This document shows positions 9,101 through 59,967 of a stretch of 64,000 nt of DNA, one piece after another (position 1 is the stretch's first letter; every line of letters begins with the position of its first letter). Source of the DNA: a virus; IMG/VR virus record IMGVR_UViG_3300034356_002642, positions 62,001 through 126,000 of that record; one strand, written 5' to 3'. The notes under the pieces are model-generated. The model searched no databases. It was not told the DNA's origin and saw nothing but the letters and a program-made list of their open reading frames with translations. The position numbers and the translations under genes are program-made.

Positions 9101-9946
9101 TTACTTACCCAAATATTTGTTTGTATCCATCTCCAAAGTTGTTGTAATAACTTCTTTCGGAACCCGATATTCGTCAAATTCCGCATCTTCTTTTAAGTGA
9201 GTTACAATACACCCATATAACTTAATATTTTCGTATTTAGTACCTTCCAACATTTTGATTAGTAATTTACCATATAATGGTAATTGGACAAAGTAGTGCC
9301 CCAACGCATTGTCAGGTTGTTTTTGATATGGTTCCAACATTCTTTTTGTGTATCTTGTCTCAAGGAAGTTTTTTGGTTTGTTAGTCTTGTAGTCAGTAAT
9401 AACTAAACCAAATTCATTTTGATGAATATTCATAATTAACCACGCTTTATCAGGCTGACCTACGTACCCCAATTCCGGGTCACCCAATATCATCTCAGTA
9501 TCAAGTAAGACAGCACCACGTTCTTCCATCAAATCAAGAAACTTTTTTCCCGCAACAATCATATTATCACTTTTAAATAATTGGACATTGTCACATTCAA
9601 AAATTGGTTGTCGGACTTCTTTATACGAGCCATTTCTATTGATGAGCTCTTTTTCAAGTTCATAATGAACTCTACTACCCATATTGGTCGAATAGAGTCC
9701 CGCTGCTGCCCACTCCTCAAGTAATTCTTTTTGTTTTTGTGGGTCGCCCTTGGCTTTAGTGTAGGACGCCTCCTCAACAGGAAACTCAGTATAAAACTTC
9801 TTTAACACTTTTGACACCGAAGGGTAATCAGTTTTACCATTCATTGTATAAATGTGCTCTTCCTCCTCAAACGTCAATCCCAATGATTTTTGTCTTTGAG
9901 CGACTAATTCTCTTATTTCTTGTGCAATAGTTTTTAATTCTATCAT
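9101..9946 (-). CDS. RecB/Cas4-like PD-(D/E)XK nuclease
   Basis: The 281-aa sequence shows a RecB-family nuclease core. It has GSRVHYELE (H94, E97), then G-YVGQPDKA (D166), the catalytic DYKTNK (D185, K187) and FVQLPLY (Q221, Y225, the QxxxY motif). A Cas4-type cysteine cluster is not seen, so it is more like phage RecB-like exonucleases. It probably degrades or trims DNA during replication or recombination. It lies between the WCTA gene and a small conserved gene, in the primase-gp47 segment. Confidence 0.88.
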   Translation of the reverse strand: MIELKTIAQEIRELVAQRQKSLGLTFEEEEHIYTMNGKTDYPSVSKVLKKFYTEFPVEEASYTKAKGDPQKQKELLEEWAAAGLYSTNMGSRVHYELEKELINRNGSYKEVRQPIFECDNVQLFKSDNMIVAGKKFLDLMEERGAVLLDTEMILGDPELGYVGQPDKAWLIMNIHQNEFGLVITDYKTNKPKNFLETRYTKRMLEPYQKQPDNALGHYFVQLPLYGKLLIKMLEGTKYENIKLYGCIVTHLKEDAEFDEYRVPKEVITTTLEMDTNKYLGK

Positions 9947-9952
9947 ATTTTT

Positions 9953-10117
9953 TTATTTAAACATTGGTGTAAAATACTCAATTAGATATTTTGCGTAGTT
10001 AGTTAATAATTCGTGACCATCAAACATGAAAGTATCTTTTGAAGTATTAACGGCGTTTTGATACTCGTTTTTTAATCTTGAAAATGTTGATTTATCAACT
10101 GAAAGTGTATTTGACAT
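9953..10117 (-). CDS. Conserved small phage protein (54 aa)
   Basis: A short gene from ATG 10117 to TAA 9953. It encodes MSNTLSVDKSTFSRLKNEYQ, then DTFMFDGHELLTNYAKYLIEY near the end. The pattern of helix plus DGHELLTNYAKYLIEY resembles small uncharacterised proteins common in T4-like cyanophages. It is preceded by an A-rich leader (AATAATAAAAATAACT) and ends 7 bases before the RecB-like gene. Function unknown. Confidence 0.75.
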   Translation of the reverse strand: MSNTLSVDKSTFSRLKNEYQNAVNTSKDTFMFDGHELLTNYAKYLIEYFTPMFK

Positions 10118-10178
10118 AGTTATTTTTATTATTTATGGTACAAATTAACAACATTTTTTTTATACTTCCAAATATTTC

Positions 10179-11116: not shown

Positions 11117-11806
11117 TTAATCATTACCTTTACGTATATTATCTGTAGCCCATAAAGGTTGTAAATTATTTAACGAATTCACAATTTTAGGGTCAGAACC
11201 TTTTTCAAACTTACTAACAGGGATTATATGGTCAATATGCCACTTACCCCAATTATCCCAAGACATTCCTTCAGTAAATAAATTTTCCAGATGATTTTTT
11301 AATTCTACCGCTGAATATCCTAAAATATCGTAGGTAGATGACTCTTTTTTACTGCCAAGTCGTCTAATAACCGAACCTAACATACTTCTCCAAGCATATA
11401 TGTGAGGGTACCTAATATATCTTTTTTTGTAGTATTCGTTAAGTTTTTCATGATTATTTTTCGAATAGTTTTTAACTCTTTTTTTATGTGTCTCAGAAAA
11501 CCCTGAAAAATTATTATAATTATATTTAAATTTATCACTACGACATTTTTTACAGACAGACCTATAACCATCTTTACTACTAATATGTTTATGAAATTCA
11601 CCAACACCTTTTTCAATTAAACAAATAGAACAAGTTTTACTATTTATAACAATCTTTTTATTTTTCCTATTTGTATGATATTCCTTCTTACTAATAATTT
11701 TACGACATTCTTTGCATTGATAATATCGTCCATCTTTCTCCCTAATATGATAATGAAATTCACAAACATCTTTTTCAATTAAACATTTACTACATATTTT
11801 TCTCAT
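11117..11806 (-). CDS. Free-standing HNH homing endonuclease with two zinc ribbons
   Basis: 229 aa. Two tandem CxxC...CxxC modules occupy residues ~4-35 (CSKCLIEK to CKECRK) and ~60-90 (CSICLIEK to CKKCRS). A basic linker follows, then a C-terminal HNH domain with WHIDHIIPVS and LNNLQPLWATDN. The other three HNH genes here have one ribbon, so this copy has an internal duplication. It sits beside the primase gene, and its start overlaps the end of a ribbon-helix-helix gene by 17 bases. Confidence 0.9.
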   Translation of the reverse strand: MRKICSKCLIEKDVCEFHYHIREKDGRYYQCKECRKIISKKEYHTNRKNKKIVINSKTCSICLIEKGVGEFHKHISSKDGYRSVCKKCRSDKFKYNYNNFSGFSETHKKRVKNYSKNNHEKLNEYYKKRYIRYPHIYAWRSMLGSVIRRLGSKKESSTYDILGYSAVELKNHLENLFTEGMSWDNWGKWHIDHIIPVSKFEKGSDPKIVNSLNNLQPLWATDNIRKGND

Positions 11807-11948
11807 TACTAAAATACTTTATTAATAATTTATTAACCAATGACGACAAATTAATAGATTTATCTCTAACAATTTTTTCAATATTAGGGTCTATAGTGAT
11901 AGACATCCTAATTTTCTTTTCTTCTAACTTTATTTGTTTACGTCCCAT
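11790..11948 (-). CDS. Ribbon-helix-helix protein paired with HNH endonuclease (copy 1)
   Basis: 52 aa, ATG 11948 to TAG 11790. A lysine-rich start (MGRKQIKLEEKK) is followed by a strand (IRMSITIDP) and a helix-turn-helix segment (DKSINLSSLVNKLLIKYF), the layout of an Arc/CopG-type DNA-binding fold. It overlaps the HNH start in another frame, so translation is probably coupled. A second copy at 58771-58923 has the same arrangement and shares DKSINLSSLVNKLL exactly. It could repress its own operon, but that is inference. Confidence 0.8.
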   Translation of the reverse strand: MGRKQIKLEEKKIRMSITIDPNIEKIVRDKSINLSSLVNKLLIKYFSNEKNM

Positions 11949-12018
11949 TTCAATAAATATATTACTTTTTGTTAAAGTATCATTTTTTTTATAATAAAAT
12001 TAATTTAATTTACCCTAA

Positions 12019-12165
12019 TTATGGTTCCAAATCTACAATGTGTTTCTTCCACCATTTTTTTAAACGACTATTGTCATTAAGTTTTTCAATCCGTTTGTCT
12101 ATTGGAAAAATTAATAACCATGACAACGCAATTACACACCAAATTATAAAAAATACTATTTCCAT
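12019..12165 (-). CDS. Small single-span membrane protein (48 aa)
   Basis: ATG 12165 to TAA 12019. An N-terminal hydrophobic span (IVFFIIWCVIALSWLLIF) is followed by a basic cytoplasmic-type tail (LKKWWKKH). The leader AATAAAAACAAT precedes the ATG, and the start overlaps the stop of the 129-aa gene upstream. Function is unknown. Confidence 0.65.
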   Translation of the reverse strand: MEIVFFIIWCVIALSWLLIFPIDKRIEKLNDNSRLKKWWKKHIVDLEP

Positions 12166-12542
12166 TTTATTGTTTTTATTTTCCAATTATTATCAATACT
12201 TACCGCAAAATAAGCCAGATGTTGATTAATGTCCGTTAATAAACTATTTCTCAAAAAGATACCAAGTTTAATCGGTGAAACCTTATGAGATTTATCTGTT
12301 TTTATATCCGACCTATACCATTTACTTTGATTTGCAGAAGTTACAACCACCACATTTAATTCACCATCAAACACTACATCAATTTCATTATAACAAGAAT
12401 TAGGTGTTGTATCATAAACCCTATATCCCGTAATGGAAAAGACACCCCTATATCGTTTTCCAACAACAGGGATGTCTTTCGAATATTTTAAAATTGTTTT
12501 TCTAAGATTTTTGGTTTCAGTATCTCTTCGAATTGTATTCAT
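12156..12542 (-). CDS. Unknown protein (129 aa)
   Basis: I prefer ATG 12542 (MNTIRRDTETKN); a GTG six codons upstream at 12560 is the alternative. The sequence looks alpha/beta with strands (VVGKRYRGVFSITGYRVY, LNVVVVTS). No family is recognised. It lies between the RuvC-like nuclease and the small membrane protein. Confidence 0.65.
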   Translation of the reverse strand: MNTIRRDTETKNLRKTILKYSKDIPVVGKRYRGVFSITGYRVYDTTPNSCYNEIDVVFDGELNVVVVTSANQSKWYRSDIKTDKSHKVSPIKLGIFLRNSLLTDINQHLAYFAVSIDNNWKIKTIKWK

Positions 12543-12603
12543 TCTGTCAAAATCATTCACTTCACATTAATTTGTTCGGCAAAGATATAACATTTTTTTC
12601 AAT

Positions 12604-13206
12604 CTACCAAATTCCCATCATTTTCATATAACCTAACGCACAAGTGTAACTATCTGTCATATCAAAATTTTCTTTTTTGAGAGTACTATTTCTAGTATAT
12701 ATCCAATTAATTTGAGGTTCTTTTTTAGCAACTAAGTCCCATATAATTTGTTTCTTGTCAATAGTTTTTGGTAATCCACCGAAAAGAACAAACTTATTTT
12801 TATCATTCTCTTGAACTAATTCCGGGAATGCAAATTTTCTTGAATTATATGTTGAGATAAATTGAGGTACGACACCTAAAATATCGTAAACTTCTTTACA
12901 TACTAAGGTATTAAATCTCAATAAAGTTCCAACAGTATACACATTATTTGAGTTCAATAAAGGTTCCTCAATAACAACATATTTAATACCCATCCCAACA
13001 TAACTCTCCAATTTTTGTTTGAAGATATCACTTTTAAGCATTAACTCTTCAATCTTGTTTTCAACTTTTGGTTTTGGGACCGGTGAAACATGAGTTAATT
13101 CTAATAATTCTTGACTTTGAATATCAAATAACGCAACTCCAACTGTTTTGGTTGACACATCTAATCCAAGGACTTTTGGGGAATCTTTCTTAATGTTTTT
13201 TGTCAT
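12604..13206 (-). CDS. RuvC-like Holliday-junction resolvase (RNase H fold)
   Basis: 200 aa. The RNase H-fold acidic residues are at D16 (VLGLDVSTKTVG), E80 (YVVIEEPLL) and D182/D185 (DMTDSYTCALGY), the RuvC-type order. It would cut branched recombination intermediates before packaging, a task done by gp49 (endonuclease VII) in T4. It sits between HNH copy 2 and small unknown genes. A different structure-specific nuclease of the same fold cannot be excluded. Confidence 0.82.
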   Translation of the reverse strand: MTKNIKKDSPKVLGLDVSTKTVGVALFDIQSQELLELTHVSPVPKPKVENKIEELMLKSDIFKQKLESYVGMGIKYVVIEEPLLNSNNVYTVGTLLRFNTLVCKEVYDILGVVPQFISTYNSRKFAFPELVQENDKNKFVLFGGLPKTIDKKQIIWDLVAKKEPQINWIYTRNSTLKKENFDMTDSYTCALGYMKMMGIW

Positions 13207-13207
13207 A

Positions 13208-14008
13208 TTAAATAATTTTACTACCTTTTTTTATATTGTCGATAGCCCACATTGGTTGTAAGTTAGTAAAATGACAGAGATTGTAAAGTTCTTCCTCAGT
13301 TTTGGCACTTGATAATGGTATTTTGTGGTCAATATGCCATCCATAATATCCGTAATTATCCCATGACATTCCTTCATTAAATTTTTGTTCTAAATGTTCT
13401 TTCAAAAATTCAGGAGAACAACCTATAATGTTAAAACTTTTATTATTTTTTCTTACATCTTTTAATTTAACATAAAAAAGTAACCTATTTCTAAGATTAT
13501 GTTTTAATCTTTCGATTGGACATTTTTTTCGTTTATTTAACGAATTTGTAACCGACTTATTAATTAAATCTTTTTTATTTTTATCGTAATATTCTTTCCA
13601 TCTTTTTGTTTCTTTTTCAATATTATTTTTTCTATAATTTTTATTATATTCACCCCTTTTTTCTTTATTATTCGTATTTCTTTGTCTTGACTTCTCAATA
13701 AGAATTTCCCTATTTTTAGTATAATACTCTTTCCTTTTTATTAAAAGAATTTCCTTATTTTTTTCTATATATTCTTTCCTACCCTCTAAATTATTAACAT
13801 AATAATCTTTAAAATATAACTTAGTAACATCTTTTTTACTTTCTCGATATTTTTTTATTTTTTCAATATTTTTGTCATAATATTTTTTACTAACATTTTT
13901 TCTACATTCTTTACAAATATTATTATACCCATCTTCCATACGACTATTCTTAAAAAAATATTCAACATTTTTTTCAAAGGCGCATTTATTACATTTTTTT
14001 GTATCCAT
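13208..14008 (-). CDS. Free-standing HNH homing endonuclease
   Basis: 266 aa. A single zinc ribbon (CNKCAFEKN to CKECRKN) is followed by a long, very basic Lys/Asn/Arg/Tyr-rich linker with repeated YYxKN-type units, and a C-terminal HNH domain (WHIDHKIPLSSAKTEEELY, then NLQPMWAIDN). It is inserted between the last tail gene and the RuvC-like gene, 6 bases after the tail gene stop. It has no ribbon-helix-helix partner. Confidence 0.9.
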   Translation of the reverse strand: MDTKKCNKCAFEKNVEYFFKNSRMEDGYNNICKECRKNVSKKYYDKNIEKIKKYRESKKDVTKLYFKDYYVNNLEGRKEYIEKNKEILLIKRKEYYTKNREILIEKSRQRNTNNKEKRGEYNKNYRKNNIEKETKRWKEYYDKNKKDLINKSVTNSLNKRKKCPIERLKHNLRNRLLFYVKLKDVRKNNKSFNIIGCSPEFLKEHLEQKFNEGMSWDNYGYYGWHIDHKIPLSSAKTEEELYNLCHFTNLQPMWAIDNIKKGSKII

Positions 14009-14014
14009 AATAAA

Positions 14015-16243
14015 TTAAAAATCAAGTTTTATCACATAAGATTGGATTCCTTGTCGTAATTCAGGTGATTGCAATTTAGATACAACCATAAGGTCTTTTT
14101 GTGAATTATATAACCCAATCTCCGTTACATATGAAGTTGTACCTGACATCCAAGTTGGATTCGATGTATTAGAAAACTGATTCCTACCTAAATTTACAAG
14201 ATATTTCATTTCATATATGGTCGCAGATATATCGGTTTCAAGATTCGCATACAGATAATACTCATCGCCAAAATTTAAATTATTTGATTGCCCATTCTGT
14301 GGAAGGTCAATATAATTAGCCAAATTATAGATAGGTGCCGAATCATACATAACCCGGTCAATTTGGAAAGTAGTATTTGTAATACCACTCATAGTAATAT
14401 ACCCATTAATTGAACTACCTGTTAAATCAGATGTCACATCAATTTCTCTCCAAGCGGTTGTTAATGGTCTAGTGTCACCTGTTGTCACTTGAACTAATAA
14501 TTTCATTGAATTAGCCGAATATCCACTCAAATCAGCACTTGTATATGTATTCAAAGGTTGATTTAAAAATTTAAATTCTGAACCAAATCTAACTGCAACA
14601 TTTTTAGGGTCAGTAGTTACGGTATTATCCGCCCTTATATTAGAATAATAATTACAATGTAATGAATCTGTAAACCCTGTTGAATCGAATCGATATGTCA
14701 CCCAAACATTTTGAGTAATGTTCGTTACTAAAGGTTGAGTAGGGGTGTCACCAGGTGAACATATATTTGGTGTTAATAATGATAATTTTGGTGCCGGTAA
14801 AGTCCAATTTCTATTTGACTTGTACGACATTGCAGCAATAATTTCTTCGTCGTCAATAACAATAATTTCTTGGTCAGGAAAAACTTTACCAACCCGATTT
14901 AATTTACCATTCGTATTTGGATTGTTATCCCATAATTGATAATATCTAATTCCCGGGTCATTCATATCGAGATTTTTAGTCGATTTGATATATTGAGGGA
15001 CACATAAATCATAATTACCTGGTGGGTCAATCCAAAATGTTTGCCCTATTGAACTACCCGAGGATTTATGCCACATTAGAGTAGGGATAGTTAATTTAAA
15101 GTGTCTTGCCAACCCTGTATTATCTGTTGGGTTTTGAGGGTCGTATGGTGTTGTTGCAAATTTTTCACCGTACACATTGTCAATATCTTGATTTGTATAA
15201 TGGATGATAGCAATTGCCTTTTGATTTGATGGTGGAACAATTATTGGTTCTTGATATGAATTATAGTAACCTACGAAACTCGTATCAGTTTGCCCACTAG
15301 CATTATTATACCCTAAGTATTCTTTAGTACCAATGTAGCTGACAGAACCATATTGAGTGTAATTTTCATAAATATTACTAAATAACCCAGCAGGACTTTC
15401 AGTCCATGGAATATTCATATTCCAAATCGGAGTATTTTCCCTTTGTGATACATCACAAGGACTTTCAAAATTAAATGCGTCTGTTTCCCAATAAGGTGCC
15501 GGAGTTATTGTATCATAAATTACTGTCATCCCCGATGGGTAAACTAAAACACGAGCCATTTCACCACCTAAAACTTTTCCTGTATAATCAGGAACTGACC
15601 TATCTAAAGTCAATGTCCAAGTCGTAGTACCCGTAGTCCCCGTTGTAGGGCTCAAATCTTGTATTTTATAAGTTAAAACAGGAAATGTTCCAACATTAGT
15701 ACAACCACCATTACCATCGTAAATAATTGTAATGATATCATTAATTGATGGTGTTCCTGTAGTTGGTGAACAAATTAATGTATCTAAAGTAATGTCAATC
15801 ACTGTTTGACCAACTAAAGTAGTCATATCAACTTGATAGTTTGATGTCATAGTATACGCAGAACTTATTTGAACATTCCAATTTCCGGGAGTTCCTCCTG
15901 TCATAAAAAACCCTTTGTTACCCGCAGAATTATAAATTGGTTGAACTACACTGTCCATGTATGGAATACCATAGGTGCCTCCATTACTACCTTGAACATA
16001 ATATGGATACTTGACATTCTGTTTGTTTGATTGAGGGGAACCCGTATCATTTTGAGCATTAAATGCCGGCATTAAAATGTTATTATTTGTTTGGTTATAG
16101 TTTGGAACCGCAGTATAACTTACCTCACTATCACCAATTTGAAAGTAAGCAATATCAAAATTCCCTTGTGATAGATATCTTCTACCCACATCAGTTAATC
16201 TTGTGTTAATCAATCCCGCAGTATTTTTAATTATATATGACAT
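14015..16243 (-). CDS. Tail-associated structural protein
   Basis: 742 aa. The N-terminus (LINTRLTDVGRRYLSQG, then FQIGDSEVSY) is of a type I associate with large tail or baseplate-attached proteins of T4-like marine phages. The rest is beta-rich, low in Cys and Lys, with Asn/Thr/Tyr-rich loops, as in virion proteins. It is the last gene of the tail/fibre module. No enzymatic motif is seen. Confidence 0.75.
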   Translation of the reverse strand: MSYIIKNTAGLINTRLTDVGRRYLSQGNFDIAYFQIGDSEVSYTAVPNYNQTNNNILMPAFNAQNDTGSPQSNKQNVKYPYYVQGSNGGTYGIPYMDSVVQPIYNSAGNKGFFMTGGTPGNWNVQISSAYTMTSNYQVDMTTLVGQTVIDITLDTLICSPTTGTPSINDIITIIYDGNGGCTNVGTFPVLTYKIQDLSPTTGTTGTTTWTLTLDRSVPDYTGKVLGGEMARVLVYPSGMTVIYDTITPAPYWETDAFNFESPCDVSQRENTPIWNMNIPWTESPAGLFSNIYENYTQYGSVSYIGTKEYLGYNNASGQTDTSFVGYYNSYQEPIIVPPSNQKAIAIIHYTNQDIDNVYGEKFATTPYDPQNPTDNTGLARHFKLTIPTLMWHKSSGSSIGQTFWIDPPGNYDLCVPQYIKSTKNLDMNDPGIRYYQLWDNNPNTNGKLNRVGKVFPDQEIIVIDDEEIIAAMSYKSNRNWTLPAPKLSLLTPNICSPGDTPTQPLVTNITQNVWVTYRFDSTGFTDSLHCNYYSNIRADNTVTTDPKNVAVRFGSEFKFLNQPLNTYTSADLSGYSANSMKLLVQVTTGDTRPLTTAWREIDVTSDLTGSSINGYITMSGITNTTFQIDRVMYDSAPIYNLANYIDLPQNGQSNNLNFGDEYYLYANLETDISATIYEMKYLVNLGRNQFSNTSNPTWMSGTTSYVTEIGLYNSQKDLMVVSKLQSPELRQGIQSYVIKLDF

Positions 16244-38729: not shown

Positions 38730-39497
38730 TTATATTGTCTTTAATATTTTATTTCCTTTTTTTAAATTATCTTCAGCCCATAATGGTTGAAGATTCGTAT
38801 AGTAACTAAGTTGGTAAATTTCTTCTTCAGTTTTAGATGAAGATAATGGTATTATGTGGTCTATATGCCACCCATATAATCCATAATTTTCCCAAGACAT
38901 ACCCTCCTTAAATTGTTTTTCCAAATGTTCTTTAAGAAATTCCGGAGTACATCCTACAATTTCAAAGGTTTTATTTTTTTTAGTTATAATGTTAAGTTTC
39001 AAATATTGACTTAATCTTCGTCTAATATTACTTGACATTTTTCTTTTTGGTTTTTGATTACTTTTCTTAAGGGTTTCTTTTATTTTTTCAGGATTGTTTT
39101 CTCGATATTTTTTGTGAGATTCCATTATTTTTTCAATATTATTTTCTCTATATTGTTTACTATATTCCTTTATCTTTTCAATATTATTTTTTTTCCAAAT
39201 TGATGAATTTTCAATAGATTTTTTAGAATTATTTTCATACCATTTTTGACTATAATCTTTTACCTTATCAGGGTTATTTTTTTTCCATTCTCTACTTCTT
39301 TGGATTTCTTTTTCAGAGTTTATTTTATACCAATTTTGACTTGTCTCTTTTTTCTTCTCTGAATTAAGTTCCATCCATTTTGAAACACGTTTTATATTAC
39401 ACGTTTTACATTCACTCCTCCTATAAAGTTTTTTCTCTAAATAAAAATCATCCAATGATTTTTCAATTAAACATTTAGTACAAACTTTTGTTTCCAT
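38730..39497 (-). CDS. Free-standing HNH homing endonuclease
   Basis: About 255 aa from ATG 39497 (METKVCTKCLIEKSL), matching the start of the HNH gene at 58.8 kb; longer starts run into the upstream structural gene. One zinc ribbon (CTKC to CKTC) is followed by a Lys/Asn/Glu-rich linker with repeated xWKKNNxEKIKEY-type units, and the HNH domain WHIDHIIPLSSSKTEEEIY. It interrupts an otherwise continuous baseplate operon. It has no ribbon-helix-helix partner, but a TATTTATG element ends 3 bases before the ATG. Confidence 0.9.
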   Translation of the reverse strand: METKVCTKCLIEKSLDDFYLEKKLYRRSECKTCNIKRVSKWMELNSEKKKETSQNWYKINSEKEIQRSREWKKNNPDKVKDYSQKWYENNSKKSIENSSIWKKNNIEKIKEYSKQYRENNIEKIMESHKKYRENNPEKIKETLKKSNQKPKRKMSSNIRRRLSQYLKLNIITKKNKTFEIVGCTPEFLKEHLEKQFKEGMSWENYGLYGWHIDHIIPLSSSKTEEEIYQLSYYTNLQPLWAEDNLKKGNKILKTI

Positions 39498-39528
39498 ATT
39501 CATAAATACCTTATCTCTTTTTTTTCTG

Positions 39529-40620
39529 TTAATTTTCTTTATTAATGACATTGAAGAACCCAAACCCATAGTTAATCATGTCACCAAGGTTATCTACCTC
39601 ACCTAATCTTTGTATTCTCTCATACGCGGAGTTTTTACCTCTTTCAACAAAAACATTAGTTTGAACCTGTGCTTGGTCAATAACTTTGAGTAATACCTCA
39701 TCTTTAGTTATTGGAACCGCAGTTATATTATTTTCCGTAAGTCCTGATGATTGTACGAAATAAATTGTGGTACCATCAATGTAATCATAGTAATTAATTT
39801 CAGTAATTGTATAAGCAGTATAAATTGAAGTAACATCTGTTATTGCTCCCCATATTTGACCATTACTAATCACAGGAACCCCAATTCGTTCATTAATTGT
39901 TGGATTACCATACATTTTTAACTCATTAATTCTCGACTTAGTAATTCCTGATACGGTAAACGGTATTGAAACATAATTGTTAGAGGTTTGAGCAGATACT
40001 TCATTAATCGCATCCCCAGAAAATATATAATCATAAGATACCGAAGTCCCAACCCAATTCCCTGAAGAAGGAGCAAAAAATGCTTCACCCTGTGGGTTGT
40101 AAATTACAACATCACTAAATGGAACCGTTATTGTTTTTGAAACACTGGTAATGCCCCAAGGATTTGTTTGTTCTAATTTAATCGTATATTCTTTATTCTC
40201 AACAGGGTATGTGTGATTAATTGAATTAGGTGCGTAATTAGTGATAGTTTGTTTTGGGGAACCGTCACCCCAATCAATCTTATATGAAGATAAATCTAAA
40301 AATTTTTGGAACTCATCCGACGTATTATAAACATTGTAAAGGTAAGGGGATGATGTTGTTGAAGAAAATATAAAATTTGCAACAACATTTTTTTGTAATA
40401 CCGCACCATCAAATGGACTATAATACCCGGTATCAACCGCACTTTGTCTAATCAAAATAGGTATAGTCAATCCGGTTAATAAGGAACTACCATTAACACC
40501 CGAACTAACAACTTGGGTCATTGCAGAATAAACACCAACGGGTGTCCCTTCATAATCAACAACGAATAAATCCCCAAGAATCGTTTCCGGTGATATTTTA
40601 ATATTATAAAAATCTTCCAT
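39529..40620 (-). CDS. Baseplate/tail protein with PKD-like domain (363 aa)
   Basis: Residues ~100-170 form a PKD/Ig-like unit (YKIDWGDGSPKQTITN, then NHTYPVENKEYTIKLE), recognisable by WGDGS and the HTY turn. The flanks are beta-rich. TAATG coupling joins its start to the 276-aa gene upstream. It is a structural protein. Confidence 0.75.
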   Translation of the reverse strand: MEDFYNIKISPETILGDLFVVDYEGTPVGVYSAMTQVVSSGVNGSSLLTGLTIPILIRQSAVDTGYYSPFDGAVLQKNVVANFIFSSTTSSPYLYNVYNTSDEFQKFLDLSSYKIDWGDGSPKQTITNYAPNSINHTYPVENKEYTIKLEQTNPWGITSVSKTITVPFSDVVIYNPQGEAFFAPSSGNWVGTSVSYDYIFSGDAINEVSAQTSNNYVSIPFTVSGITKSRINELKMYGNPTINERIGVPVISNGQIWGAITDVTSIYTAYTITEINYYDYIDGTTIYFVQSSGLTENNITAVPITKDEVLLKVIDQAQVQTNVFVERGKNSAYERIQRLGEVDNLGDMINYGFGFFNVINKEN

Positions 40621-56723: not shown

Positions 56724-57038
56724 TTATACTATTTGTTTTCCCTCAACATTTCTTTTTATTCTGTCGGAGGTTCTTTTGTTTAACCATAAAAGAGCTTCGT
56801 CTAATTTGGTAATAGCAATTGCGTTTTCGCGACAAGGGAATTTACTTTGTAAGTAATTCATTCTGTTTAACAACATTTCAATTAATTCCTCATTTGTTGT
56901 ACCATCGGCGATTGTCTTTAATTCTGTTGAACCTTCAGTTATTGGTTCTTTTTGAATAAATTGTAATGCCTGTCCTTGTTCCTCTTTGTTTTCAAAGTTT
57001 GATAACTCGTACTTGTGTCCTTCTACTAATACTTTCAT
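56724..57038 (-). CDS. Acb2/Tad1 hairpin-domain protein, candidate anti-CBASS cyclic-nucleotide sponge
   Basis: 104 aa from ATG 57038, which overlaps the RNase H stop as ATGA; the longer reading needs a non-ATG start inside that gene. Residues 50-100 match the Acb2/Tad1 hairpin pattern: TTNEELIEMLLNRMNYL, FPCRENAIAITKLDEALLWL and KRTSDRIKRNVEG. Members of this family bind cyclic di- and trinucleotides and blunt CBASS or Thoeris signalling. The N-terminal ~45 residues are less conserved. The fold assignment is by recognition of the pattern only, so the function is a hypothesis. Confidence 0.6.
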   Translation of the reverse strand: MKVLVEGHKYELSNFENKEEQGQALQFIQKEPITEGSTELKTIADGTTNEELIEMLLNRMNYLQSKFPCRENAIAITKLDEALLWLNKRTSDRIKRNVEGKQIV

Positions 57039-58033
57039 TTGTTTGTGTTTCGTTTTTCTTTTCTTGTTAATTTCATAAATGGTCTTAGGAAATTCACCCA
57101 AGCCTCATCGTTTTTTGGAAGATATTTAAAGAGACCATCTTCCATCATAAGTCTCATTAGATTTTTGTATCCCCTATCGGTGGGGTCAATCGTGTCAGTA
57201 ATAATTTGGTTTACTAATTCTTTCGCATTTTCTGTAATTAAGGGGTTAGATAAATCGACTATTTTTTTGTTTGTAGTGTAAAACTCTTCACCAAGTATAC
57301 CATTTTTTGTTTTACCAATCAAAATATTTTCCAATACTTTTGATTTTTTTTCTTGCACGATATTTCCTGCATTAACTCGTATTTCTTCCATAGTGCATGG
57401 TTTAACCTGCATATCAGGGAATAATTTAACTAAAGTTTTTTCACCTAAACCCTCAATACCATTAATATTATCAGAATTATCTCCTGTAAGAATTTTACAA
57501 GTTAAGACATTATAGTGGGGAATTTGAACTTTATTGATGGTAATCATATCACCCTGTTTAAAGTATTGTTTTGAGTTTGGTGAGTAAACGGATACTTTAT
57601 CCGAGATAAGCTGTGTAAGGTCCTTATCTGATGAAAATATGGTAATGTCTTCGTTGGTTGACATTTTACAATAATACGCAATAAGGTCGTCTCCTTCGTT
57701 ATGAGGCGTTTCAACTTGCCTAACAAAGACCTCCTCAAGATATTCTTTAATACGAGCGTTTTGAGTTAGATATGATTCAAGTTCATATTCATTAATATTT
57801 TGTTTTCTATTTGTCTTATATTGAGGATAAAGTTCTTTCCGAGTGGACGAACTATGTTCGGCATCCCACATAACAACTACCTTATCGTAATTATGTTCCT
57901 CAAGGAATTTTCTAATGGTGTTGATAAAGTGGTAGATAGCACCCGAATGATTTTTATCACTATAAAGTTCTTTAACTCCGTGATACCCAATCTTCATTAA
58001 GTTGGCACCGTCAATTAATAATGTTTTTTTCAA
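57035..58033 (-). CDS. rnh: RNase H / 5'-3' exonuclease (T4 Rnh-like, FEN family), TTG start
   Basis: 332 aa, about the length of T4 Rnh. Acidic metal sites: LLIDGAN (D8), VMWDAEHSSSTR, HNEGDDLIAYY, FSSDKDLTQL and LTGDNSDNINGIEGLG (helix-hairpin-helix-type region). It removes RNA primers during lagging-strand synthesis. The start is TTG at 58033; the next ATG is 12 codons in, after the essential LIDGAN, so the TTG is needed. The HNH gene ends 17 bases before it, and its insertion may have replaced the original leader. Confidence 0.9.
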   Translation of the reverse strand: MKKTLLIDGANLMKIGYHGVKELYSDKNHSGAIYHFINTIRKFLEEHNYDKVVVMWDAEHSSSTRKELYPQYKTNRKQNINEYELESYLTQNARIKEYLEEVFVRQVETPHNEGDDLIAYYCKMSTNEDITIFSSDKDLTQLISDKVSVYSPNSKQYFKQGDMITINKVQIPHYNVLTCKILTGDNSDNINGIEGLGEKTLVKLFPDMQVKPCTMEEIRVNAGNIVQEKKSKVLENILIGKTKNGILGEEFYTTNKKIVDLSNPLITENAKELVNQIITDTIDPTDRGYKNLMRLMMEDGLFKYLPKNDEAWVNFLRPFMKLTRKEKRNTNK

Positions 58034-58049
58034 TTAAACCTATTTAAGG

Positions 58050-58781
58050 TTATACAATAATTTTGTTACTCTTTTTTAAATTATCTTCAGCCCATAATGG
58101 TTGAAGATTTTCATAATGACATAACTTATAAAGTTCGTCTTCTGTTTTTGCCGATGATAATGGAATGATGTGGTCAATATGCCACTCACCCCTGTTATCC
58201 CAACTCATACCATCGCTAAATTGGGTTTCTAAATGTTCTTTAAGAAATTCCGGTGAACACCCTACAATATCGAAAGTTTTATTAGTTTTACTAATGTTTC
58301 GGGTTTTAAGAAATGATAAAAGTCTAGACCTCATAATACATTTTAATCGAAAAATAACATCATTTTTTAATCTTAAAGAATGATAAAGATTTCTTTTTAC
58401 TTTAACTTTTTCTTTATTTTTTTCTGACCACTCTTTTTTATAAGTTAAAATAGTTTCTTTATTATTTTCATAATATATTTTATACCGATTTGGGTCTTTT
58501 TGGTATCTTTTTTTTGACCTATCATTATCTTTTACCCTAATTACATCAATATTTTCTTCTCGGTAATTTTTAACTTTTAATAATATTTTTTCCCGGTTAT
58601 CAATGTATTCTTTTCTTTTTTGAGCCTTTATTTTTTCATCGTTATTATCCCTATATTTTTTCCAAACCATATAAGAACATTGTTTACATTCAGTTCTAAA
58701 CCCATCTTTAGAATCTTTTCTTTTTCTAAAATTAGGTAATTCTTTTTCAAGATTACACTTACTACAAACTTTAGTTTCCAT
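58050..58781 (-). CDS. Free-standing HNH homing endonuclease
   Basis: 243 aa. Zinc ribbon (CSKCNLEK to CKQC), basic linker, then HNH domain WHIDHIIPLSSAKTEDELY, NLQPLWAEDN. It sits between uvsX and rnh. Its start overlaps the end of a ribbon-helix-helix gene by 11 bases. Closest in-window relative: the HNH at 38.7 kb. Confidence 0.92.
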   Translation of the reverse strand: METKVCSKCNLEKELPNFRKRKDSKDGFRTECKQCSYMVWKKYRDNNDEKIKAQKRKEYIDNREKILLKVKNYREENIDVIRVKDNDRSKKRYQKDPNRYKIYYENNKETILTYKKEWSEKNKEKVKVKRNLYHSLRLKNDVIFRLKCIMRSRLLSFLKTRNISKTNKTFDIVGCSPEFLKEHLETQFSDGMSWDNRGEWHIDHIIPLSSAKTEDELYKLCHYENLQPLWAEDNLKKSNKIIV

Positions 58782-58923
58782 TTCTAATATATTCTTTTAA
58801 TAATTTATTAACAAGGGAAGATAAATTTATAGATTTATCCTTAAAGTACTGTGGAAGTTCTGGGTCTATTGAGACTCCAATCTTAACTTTCTTTTCAATT
58901 TCTTCTTTTTTCTTTCTTCCCAT
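58771..58923 (-). CDS. Ribbon-helix-helix protein paired with HNH endonuclease (copy 2)
   Basis: 50 aa, ATG 58923 to TAA 58771. MGRKKKEEIEKKVKIGVSID is followed by DKSINLSSLVNKLLKEYI. The last 14-residue core is the same as in copy 1, and the HNH-overlap layout is the same. A TATTTATT element ends 3 bases before the ATG. The predicted fold is Arc/CopG-like. Confidence 0.8.
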   Translation of the reverse strand: MGRKKKEEIEKKVKIGVSIDPELPQYFKDKSINLSSLVNKLLKEYIRNGN

Positions 58924-58974
58924 ATTAATAAATATCTACAAATGTAATAAAAGTAGAATAATTATAACTTTTTT

Positions 58975-59967
58975 TTATTCTTCTTCAAAACTTTCTTTTT
59001 CTGATTCATCAAGTATAATCTCCCCCGTACCACTAAGTATTGCGTTCCAATATCCAGAATATTCTTTTTTATATTTATCTAAAGACTCTTTTGTGTCCGC
59101 AATATATCCTTGAGGCACTACAATAATTTTACTATCCTTATATTGTATTCCATTCACGTGATTTTTTAATATAGAGATTTTTGTTCTAGTTGCGTAGGAA
59201 ATTGTTCTACCATTTTTAGTTGCCGTAATATGATTCACACCCGCCTTTTTTTGATTACCAAATAAAAATACCAAACTACTTGCTAACCATATCGCCTCAC
59301 CACCCTTACTCTTAATTTCCGCTTGGCCAAACGGGTTATCAGGAAGGAGTACCCATGGTTGATTTAAAAAAACCACGGTATTATAATATGGATAATCTTC
59401 TTTTTTAGATTTAGATATTCTTGAATGTATACCCATACCAACTTTATCAGCAAGTACTTTAGCGGTGTGCATTCCCCCACCTTTTCCGTCAAATGTCATT
59501 TGACAGGGAATTGACCCAATTGAGTCCCATAAAAATAATAGACTATAAGGTATTTCACCTCTTTCTTGAGCATCTAACACATCATTAATAAAATCAGTTG
59601 CTTGTTCAACAACGTCAAATGAATCGTTAAATATAAAATGACCGTCCCAAACACCATCCTCATTTTGTTCTGCCTGTAATCCAAGTTCTACCGAGTGTTC
59701 CCAAGACCATTTTTTTTCCGTAATAATAAACACCGGTAAATGTCCTTTTTTTTGGGCATCAACCGCTGCCAATATCATTGCTGTTGATTTTGATGTGTTT
59801 GAGTGACCCAAGAACATATTAATTCCTCCCATCACCGGACCTGGTAATCCAACCGTATCCATAAACGCCTCACCACAATTATAAAAACTCTCAGGTTTAT
59901 ATTTTGTTTTTGTTGAGAATTTACCTTTAATATCCTCTAATGAGAATGTTTTCTTCTTAATTGCCAT
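58975..59967 (-). CDS. uvsX: UvsX/RecA-like recombinase
   Basis: 330 aa. The P-loop is GHSNTSKST (54-62), lacking the usual second Gly; T4 UvsX also deviates here. Walker B is LLFLWDSIGS (D148). The L1/L2-type loop region contains VVFLNQPWVLLPDNPFG and KSKGGEAIWLASS. It pairs homologous DNA with help from the gp32-like SSB encoded upstream. The acidic C-terminus (DESEKESFEEE) is typical of RecA proteins. The start overlaps the 98-aa gene by 11 bases. Confidence 0.93.
   Translation of the reverse strand: MAIKKKTFSLEDIKGKFSTKTKYKPESFYNCGEAFMDTVGLPGPVMGGINMFLGHSNTSKSTAMILAAVDAQKKGHLPVFIITEKKWSWEHSVELGLQAEQNEDGVWDGHFIFNDSFDVVEQATDFINDVLDAQERGEIPYSLLFLWDSIGSIPCQMTFDGKGGGMHTAKVLADKVGMGIHSRISKSKKEDYPYYNTVVFLNQPWVLLPDNPFGQAEIKSKGGEAIWLASSLVFLFGNQKKAGVNHITATKNGRTISYATRTKISILKNHVNGIQYKDSKIIVVPQGYIADTKESLDKYKKEYSGYWNAILSGTGEIILDESEKESFEEE

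Follow-up and report, generated by a model that had tools for sequence, protein, structure and literature searches.

The stretch of viral DNA analyzed here (the window; 64,000 nt) covers positions 62001-126000 of a virus record of 159,920 bases and contains two loci on the minus strand at which a short ORF coding for a ribbon-helix-helix-type (RHH) protein precedes and overlaps an ORF for a homing-type endonuclease of the HNH class. In module 1, RHH1 (11790..11948, minus; 52 aa), the proposed autoregulator, overlaps HNH1 (11117..11806, minus; 229 aa) by 17 nt, and in module 2, RHH2 (58771..58923, minus; 50 aa) overlaps HNH2 (58050..58781, minus; 243 aa) by 11 nt. Each RHH gene is preceded by the promoter-like word TATTTAT (11953..11959 and 58928..58934, both minus) and, further upstream, by an operator-like element: the type-1 element ATGATACTTT (11974..11983, minus; the 26-nt model match ends at 11973) and the type-2 element AAAAAAGTTATAATTATTCTACTTTT (58949..58974, minus), which is the top match of the leave-out model described below. 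The ORFs confirm that both sites have the same layout of an RHH gene overlapping an HNH gene, as the first-pass annotation of this DNA had it, and the 14-residue core DKSINLSSLVNKLL, which it described as unchanged, is identical in RHH1 and RHH2. Its statement that the nucleases are the more divergent partners also holds, with the HNH proteins at ~32% identity as against 54% over 48 aa for the RHH pair. Two Cys-x2-Cys pair units are visible in the translation of HNH1, and we take these to be zinc ribbons. HNH1 and HNH2 both fall below the cut-off of the Pfam HNH family, and both match PHROG 1035, 'endonuclease VII' (E 6e-28 and 4e-25, respectively). The whole of cassette 2 (58050..58974, minus) lies between a RecA/UvsX-like recombinase gene (58975-59967), which has no Pfam match at E 0.001 and is named after an annotated Flavobacterium phage relative, and a gene for a 5'-3' exonuclease (ORF 57035-58033; Pfam).

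Describing these pairs as copies 1 and 2 of one arrangement was correct but understated the case, as they are two of five in the record: it contains five RHH-type genes that each overlap, by 11-29 nt, a gene for a homing-type nuclease, HNH in four cases and LAGLIDADG in one. The remaining three lie outside the window, namely module 3 (RHH3+HNH; L008:10136-10297 and 9556-10155, minus), module 4 (RHH4+HNH; L008:13615-13767 and 13748-14404, plus) and module 5 (RHH5+LAGLIDADG; L005:13232-13393 and 12469-13248, minus). The window additionally encodes two related nucleases without an RHH gene: HNH3 (13208..14008, minus), which starts 6 nt past the upstream ORF, and HNH4 (38730..39569, minus), whose ORF overlaps the upstream gene and whose similarity to HNH2 begins at 39497, 31 nt past that gene. 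Module 5 precedes a D12-class adenine methyltransferase gene (L005:11616-12467, minus; Pfam), similar-looking genes come after the RHH5 module at two other loci (L158 and L165), and this site is perhaps a second insertion hotspot. A DnaJ gene (L005:13634-14557, minus; Pfam) is located upstream of module 5. Elsewhere in the record, a GIY-YIG homing endonuclease gene (L005:7049-7717, minus) has TATTTAT upstream and no convincing RHH gene there.

RHH2 matches the Pfam CcdA profile above its cut-off (E 8e-5; profile positions 1-37 of 71), as does RHH3; the match of RHH1 (E 0.0013) is below the cut-off, and RHH4 and RHH5, which align to RHH2 at 32-46% identity, have no Pfam match, which makes the case for an RHH fold weak in these two types. 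In the three CcdA-matching proteins the match is confined to profile positions 1-39 of 71, i.e. the N-terminal DNA-binding half, and RHH1-RHH3 end 2-6 residues past it with no tail behind. An AlphaFold model of RHH2 (mean pLDDT 87) has helices at residues 22-29 and 34-47 after an N-terminal segment, with no strand assigned in the monomer; the strand of an RHH protein is expected to form only in the dimer. Foldseek searches with this monomer recovered CdbA as the best match at an E-value of only 5.7, and a PDB sequence search placed designed repeat proteins above CcdA (E 0.52). The RHH proteins are under purifying selection, with a dN/dS of 0.11 in the RHH2 clade (68 sequences, first 47 codons, 351 of 400 sampled pairs usable) and 0.06 for RHH5 (35 sequences, 36 codons, 345 usable pairs), at a median dS of about 1 for the coding pairs.

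To gauge the generality of the pairing we assembled a pool of contexts from this record, scans of IMG/VR with RHH2 (best 80 of 271 relatives), RHH1 (best 80 of 269), RHH5 (62) and RHH4 (32), and recombinase loci added later; after identical contexts were merged (134 rows into 81 unique at an earlier stage), it holds at least 146 unique contexts, each with 70 nt or more of upstream sequence. Among the matches listed, 136 of the 146 unique contexts are not cut off, the other 10 being cut by a contig end. A search for small RHH ORFs overlapping HNH genes in phages had been proposed as a check of the pairing, and the pairing was found in every one of these 136 assessable contexts among the matches listed: in 129 the RHH gene is followed by a nuclease-type ORF (minimum 120 aa), in five by a broken nuclease, each with a remnant visible by tblastn, and in two by a C5 methyltransferase that contains a LAGLIDADG intein (L046, and L100 as judged from its twin L098). 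Since the RHH contexts are related by descent, such counts do not represent independent events; that the pairing is not a chance one follows from the three additional pairs outside the window together with its recurrence across the assessable contexts. A later profile-based scan (best 80) added six unique contexts, all six with TATTTA, of which four have an HNH, one has an HNH-type start stopping at 46 aa and one is cut off. Profile searches of eight long records recovered 21 RHH genes in six of them (5, 5, 4, 3, 3 and 1) and none in the other two. Every one of the 21 has TATTTA within 60 nt upstream and overlaps an ORF (147-267 aa), which by pattern contains an HNH or LAGLIDADG motif in 19 cases. 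Two of the long records (G001 and G005) contain the same five modules as the record studied here and are therefore not independent. Searches of 50,697 GenBank phage records at E 0.01 yielded no match to RHH2 or RHH5, and a scan of bacterial genomes with RHH2 yielded one weak relative (39% over 38 residues). Relatives of HNH2 are present in 127 GenBank phage records, and at eight such places the RHH profile scored nothing better than E 0.29.

The nucleases behind the RHH genes belong to several families. By motif pattern, the 129 nucleases among the matches listed divide into 94 HNH, 30 LAGLIDADG, all behind RHH5, and five others, of which three (L047, L049 and L103) combine NUMOD3 with a TnsA-like nuclease (Pfam run on L047 and L103), one (L035) is a truncated HNH-type protein and one (L229) reads as an HNH missed by the pattern. 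The NUMOD3 plus TnsA-like proteins (298 aa; L047:3403-4299, L049, L103:2910-3806) constitute a third nuclease family behind the same RHH type. Membership in homing families is indicated by PHROG 1035 for the HNHs, LAGLIDADG_3/_1, and NUMOD3 plus TnsA-like matches. A set of 281-aa proteins (L161:3146-3991, also L159, L160 and L201) start like a zinc-ribbon HNH and contain a LAGLIDADG domain (Pfam on L161), in an apparent domain fusion. At two loci (L046:322-2460 and L098:5203-7284) an RHH gene stands before an intein-bearing C5 methyltransferase. Throughout, the RHH proteins are much more conserved than the nucleases paired with them, and the aligned contexts support the earlier notion of a variable nuclease behind a conserved RHH protein.

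TATTTA occurs within 45 nt upstream of the RHH start in all 146 contexts among the matches listed. In the record, TATTTAT lies within 60 nt before 36 of 195 ORFs (the five RHH genes included) vs. 3.7 expected. These include tail sheath and tail tube ORFs, assigned by Pfam matches below the curated cut-offs, and we call the word late-type as it also precedes ORFs matching these families. Among ten ORFs with TATTTAT ahead of them, PHROG identified one GIY-YIG homing endonuclease and no gene for a structural protein. Sheath and tube were also all that Pfam placed in the record: Terminase_6C had no match, nor did Gp23, for which the control genomes gave none either. The first-pass annotation had singled out TATTTATT as an upstream site related to the regulator: the word is indeed near the RHH genes, but it is found before many phage genes and is not RHH-specific, the specific site lying ~14 nt further upstream. 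A second upstream word, TATCTTTG, precedes 12 ORFs vs. 1.1 expected across the record, e.g. the ORF at window 12156-12542 (minus), and resembles the -7 box of Bacteroidota hosts.

The specific site is marked by ACTTT, which is found 13-14 nt above TATTTA in 127 of the 146 contexts, and at 13-16 nt in 130, among the matches listed, whereas of 50 TATTTA sites in front of genes other than RHH genes only one has ACTTT at a distance of 11-16 nt. The letters around ACTTT differ by RHH type: beside the type-1 form given above, they read ACGCACTTTT for RHH5, AAGTATnACTTTTCATACTT for RHH4 and TGTGAnnnnTCACA for RHH3. We built models of these elements from other phages only, with the record's own and near-identical copies removed, which left 3, 8, 1, 12 and 20 sequences for RHH1-RHH5, the RHH3 model thus being a single sequence. 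Scanned across both strands of the 159,920 bases, all five leave-out models ranked the cognate module first, with leads over the next site of 5.5, 4.7, 2.8, 7.7 and 13.4 bits for RHH1-RHH5. We also scanned with models of three RHH subtypes that have no member in this record: the first gave the RHH2 site its highest score, the second placed the RHH4 and RHH2 sites second and third, and the third had no RHH site among its four best, suggesting that close RHH subtypes need not be strictly insulated from each other. Dyad symmetry of the element exceeds that of shuffled sequences in three of six groups (RHH3, RHH4 and RHH2h) and not in RHH1, RHH2 and RHH5, and hence fails as a general proof of operators. 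A Mantel analysis covered 67 modules from a single clade, each with an HNH of 150 aa or more; in these, the upstream element covaries with the RHH strand (r 0.55, p 0.0005) more than with the nuclease (r 0.16, p 0.003), the correlation of RHH strand and nuclease being 0.10. In the same 67 modules the C-terminal part of the RHH protein also follows the element (partial r 0.32), as does the spacer the strand (0.49); linkage may therefore explain part of the covariation, and we rejected simple co-evolution as the explanation of the Mantel result, part of the signal being expected from physical linkage. The closer tie of the element to the RHH type than to the nuclease argues against the nuclease being its own repressor in the manner of I-TevI. 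The earlier suggestion that the RHH protein controls nuclease expression would fit well with a conserved, type-specific upstream element of this kind.

Taken together, these features lead to the proposal, which we consider fairly probable, that each pair is a self-regulated homing cassette whose RHH protein autoregulates, most likely represses, its own late-type promoter. Under this proposal, a single promoter at TATTTAT would transcribe the RHH gene and then the predicted homing nuclease; the RHH protein, being made first, would dimerize and bind a private operator just upstream of the promoter, most likely repressing it and keeping output low, such that the nuclease appears late and in small amounts only. 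The nuclease itself would be translated by coupling through the 11-29-nt gene overlap. Promoter, operator and RHH gene would accordingly form a detachable module behind which different nuclease families can stand, and a nuclease without the module would ride on the transcript of the neighboring gene. Repression is favored as the sign of control since TATTTAT also precedes 31 other ORFs, most of which have no such element. The best-surviving alternative is that the RHH protein, bound ~14 nt above TATTTAT, serves as an activator or timing factor that recruits the phage late transcription machinery to the cassette promoter. The near-constant 13-14-nt spacing, preserved across six diverged RHH types, is what one would expect of such a factor, but those 31 ORFs and the rarity of ACTTT at non-RHH sites suggest that the word works alone, and such RHH genes are mostly known to encode repressors; we accordingly regard activation as unlikely.

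The mobility of the cassette can be followed at the 3' end of the recombinase gene. Starting from the best 80 of 593 recombinase relatives, we examined 81 slots including that of the window, of which 73 are assessable, eight without an exonuclease gene having been set aside. Within this set, the slot holds RHH+HNH in 34 cases (27 unique), is empty in 33 (16 unique) and has other contents in six: one HNH alone, four C5 methyltransferases (two with an intein) and one D12-class adenine methyltransferase; an RHH gene without a nuclease occurs in none of the 73. The C5 cytosine methyltransferases in the slot, with or without a LAGLIDADG intein, are at L280:2089-4149, L295:2224-4287, L273:4009-5016 and L289. 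Flavobacterium phage immuto is the only named recombinase relative in GenBank phages (four records, 37% identity); its recombinase and exonuclease genes overlap by 8 nt, i.e. the slot is empty. An empty (L272) and a filled (L301) allele are flanked by 300-nt stretches that are 97.7% identical on one side and 99.7% on the other, which supports the earlier view of the pair as a two-gene mobile unit. A second candidate for such an empty/filled comparison (L276/L277) was rejected, as its flanks are only 89.7% and 76.3% identical.

The control module in turn comes and goes separately from the nuclease, as seen from a locus with an HNH and no RHH gene (L430) vs. one with both (L033): with recombinase genes 96.0% (401 nt) and nucleases 92.9% (706 nt) identical, the latter has ~190 nt extra (184 nt separate the two matches, whose ends share 6 nt in L430) containing the promoter-like word, the element and the RHH gene. 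Thus, the slot exists in three allelic states: empty, nuclease alone, and RHH module plus nuclease. The question can also be approached from the nuclease side, where 9 of 109 loci were set aside for having under 250 nt of upstream sequence. Relatives of HNH2 then fall into 25 unique loci with an RHH gene and 15 without, of which six are remote (28-38% identity) and nine belong to this phage group. These nine RHH-less HNHs of the recombinase slot start 2-11 nt past the recombinase stop, eight being open over 190-257 aa and one ending at 51 aa. Relatives of one LAGLIDADG type have an RHH gene at all 20 unique loci, two of them partial matches.

These alleles bear on a further alternative, namely that the RHH protein binds and inhibits the nuclease protein. 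In the type II toxin-antitoxin systems CcdAB and BrnTA, a small RHH gene likewise comes first, overlaps the gene for the harmful protein and has an operator at its own promoter, and the RHH cassettes share this RHH-first overlapping gene order along with CcdA/BrnA-like sequence; such genes are called antitoxins in the accessible portion of PMC12619734. However, the RHH proteins here lack the C-terminal partner-binding tail, with no toxin-binding region past the core in the three CcdA-matching ones, and their partners are homing nucleases of unrelated families, one RHH type serving HNH, NUMOD3/TnsA-like and methyltransferase partners. Moreover, closely similar nucleases are kept without RHH, as in the nine unique slot nucleases. 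An antitoxin-like role thus appears very improbable. We give an equally slim chance to the idea that the small ORF acts only in translational coupling or as recombination homology and that its protein is inert: the overlaps, and RHH proteins far more conserved than the nucleases, would suit such a role, but the strong purifying selection at those dS values and the matching upstream element of each RHH type speak against it. The faintest prospect is that of a targeting subunit bringing the nuclease to its cut site, an option consistent with the DNA binding of RHH proteins in general and with both proteins being encoded on what would be one message, as the same slot holds different RHH types as well as RHH-less nucleases, and the earlier idea of an RHH protein choosing the nuclease target finds no support, given these RHH-less nucleases, which are 90-95% identical to the best RHH-linked ones in seven of nine cases (85% and 88% in the others).

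Small DNA-binding proteins whose genes overlap and time a nuclease gene are also familiar from restriction-modification systems, where the C proteins are of the helix-turn-helix type. The cassettes resemble these in their gene overlap and differ in having an RHH protein; the closest parallel that we saw is in Rhizobium phage 16-3, where a helix-turn-helix gene (p099; L314:1293-1502) overlaps an endonuclease VII gene (p100; L314:1456-2253) by 47 nt, which is the same layout with an unrelated DNA-binding fold. The pairing itself has a precedent, contrary to the first-pass annotation, which knew of no described system: the accessible portion of PMC12619734 (November 2025) describes, in moraphages (aquatic jumbo phages mostly of Bacteroidota), CcdA/HicB-like antitoxins next to PacI-like homing endonucleases, with several copies in certain genomes, and suggests regulation by analogy with I-TevI. 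This is the same kind of pairing, with multiple copies per genome in some cases, and the DnaJ gene beside module 5 also fits the moraphage lineage, DnaJ being named as common there in that portion of the text. Relative to it, the putative operators and promoters, the cassette boundaries, the other nuclease families and the RHH-less alleles are described only here. In phage T4, according to the accessible part of PMC2988022, I-TevI represses itself via an operator at its own late promoter; the cassettes would likewise limit homing endonuclease expression via an operator at their own late promoter, except that in T4 the nuclease itself is the repressor, whereas a separate RHH protein is proposed here. 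The same part describes seven of the free-standing T4 homing endonucleases (seg, mob) as promoter-less cassettes that use upstream promoters; inserted between genes, they are comparable to HNH3, HNH4 and the RHH-less nucleases, and unlike the RHH cassettes with their own promoter-like word, element and putative regulator. The accessible portion of PMC10448857, on nucleases at phage exchange boundaries, makes no mention of antitoxin, ribbon or CcdA. A search by title and abstract start, with subscription papers and preprints outside its scope, found, among the matches listed, no other description of an RHH-homing endonuclease pairing and no printed report of the operators or the detachable module. 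In outline, then, the pairing is known; added here are the upstream elements, the module that can be gained or lost, the range of nuclease families and the series of alleles.

These observations touch on the old question of how selfish nucleases spare their carrier phage. To our knowledge, it has been answered in detail only for I-TevI; in the cassettes described here, the task appears to fall to a separate repressor that can be exchanged and brings an operator of its own. As the three allelic states are found in near-identical phages, the cost and benefit of regulation become directly comparable. Further, the up to five RHH-operator pairs per genome in the records examined offer a natural set for studying how small DNA-binding proteins acquire new specificities that do not interfere with each other. 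More tentatively, and with the balance of likelihood just short of even, we propose that the RHH repressor, its operator and the late-type promoter travel as one unit in an exchangeable pool of control cassettes, available to any nuclease family, with RHH-operator specificity letting several coexist. If this is true, the insulation of RHH-operator specificities would set how many selfish nucleases one phage carries.
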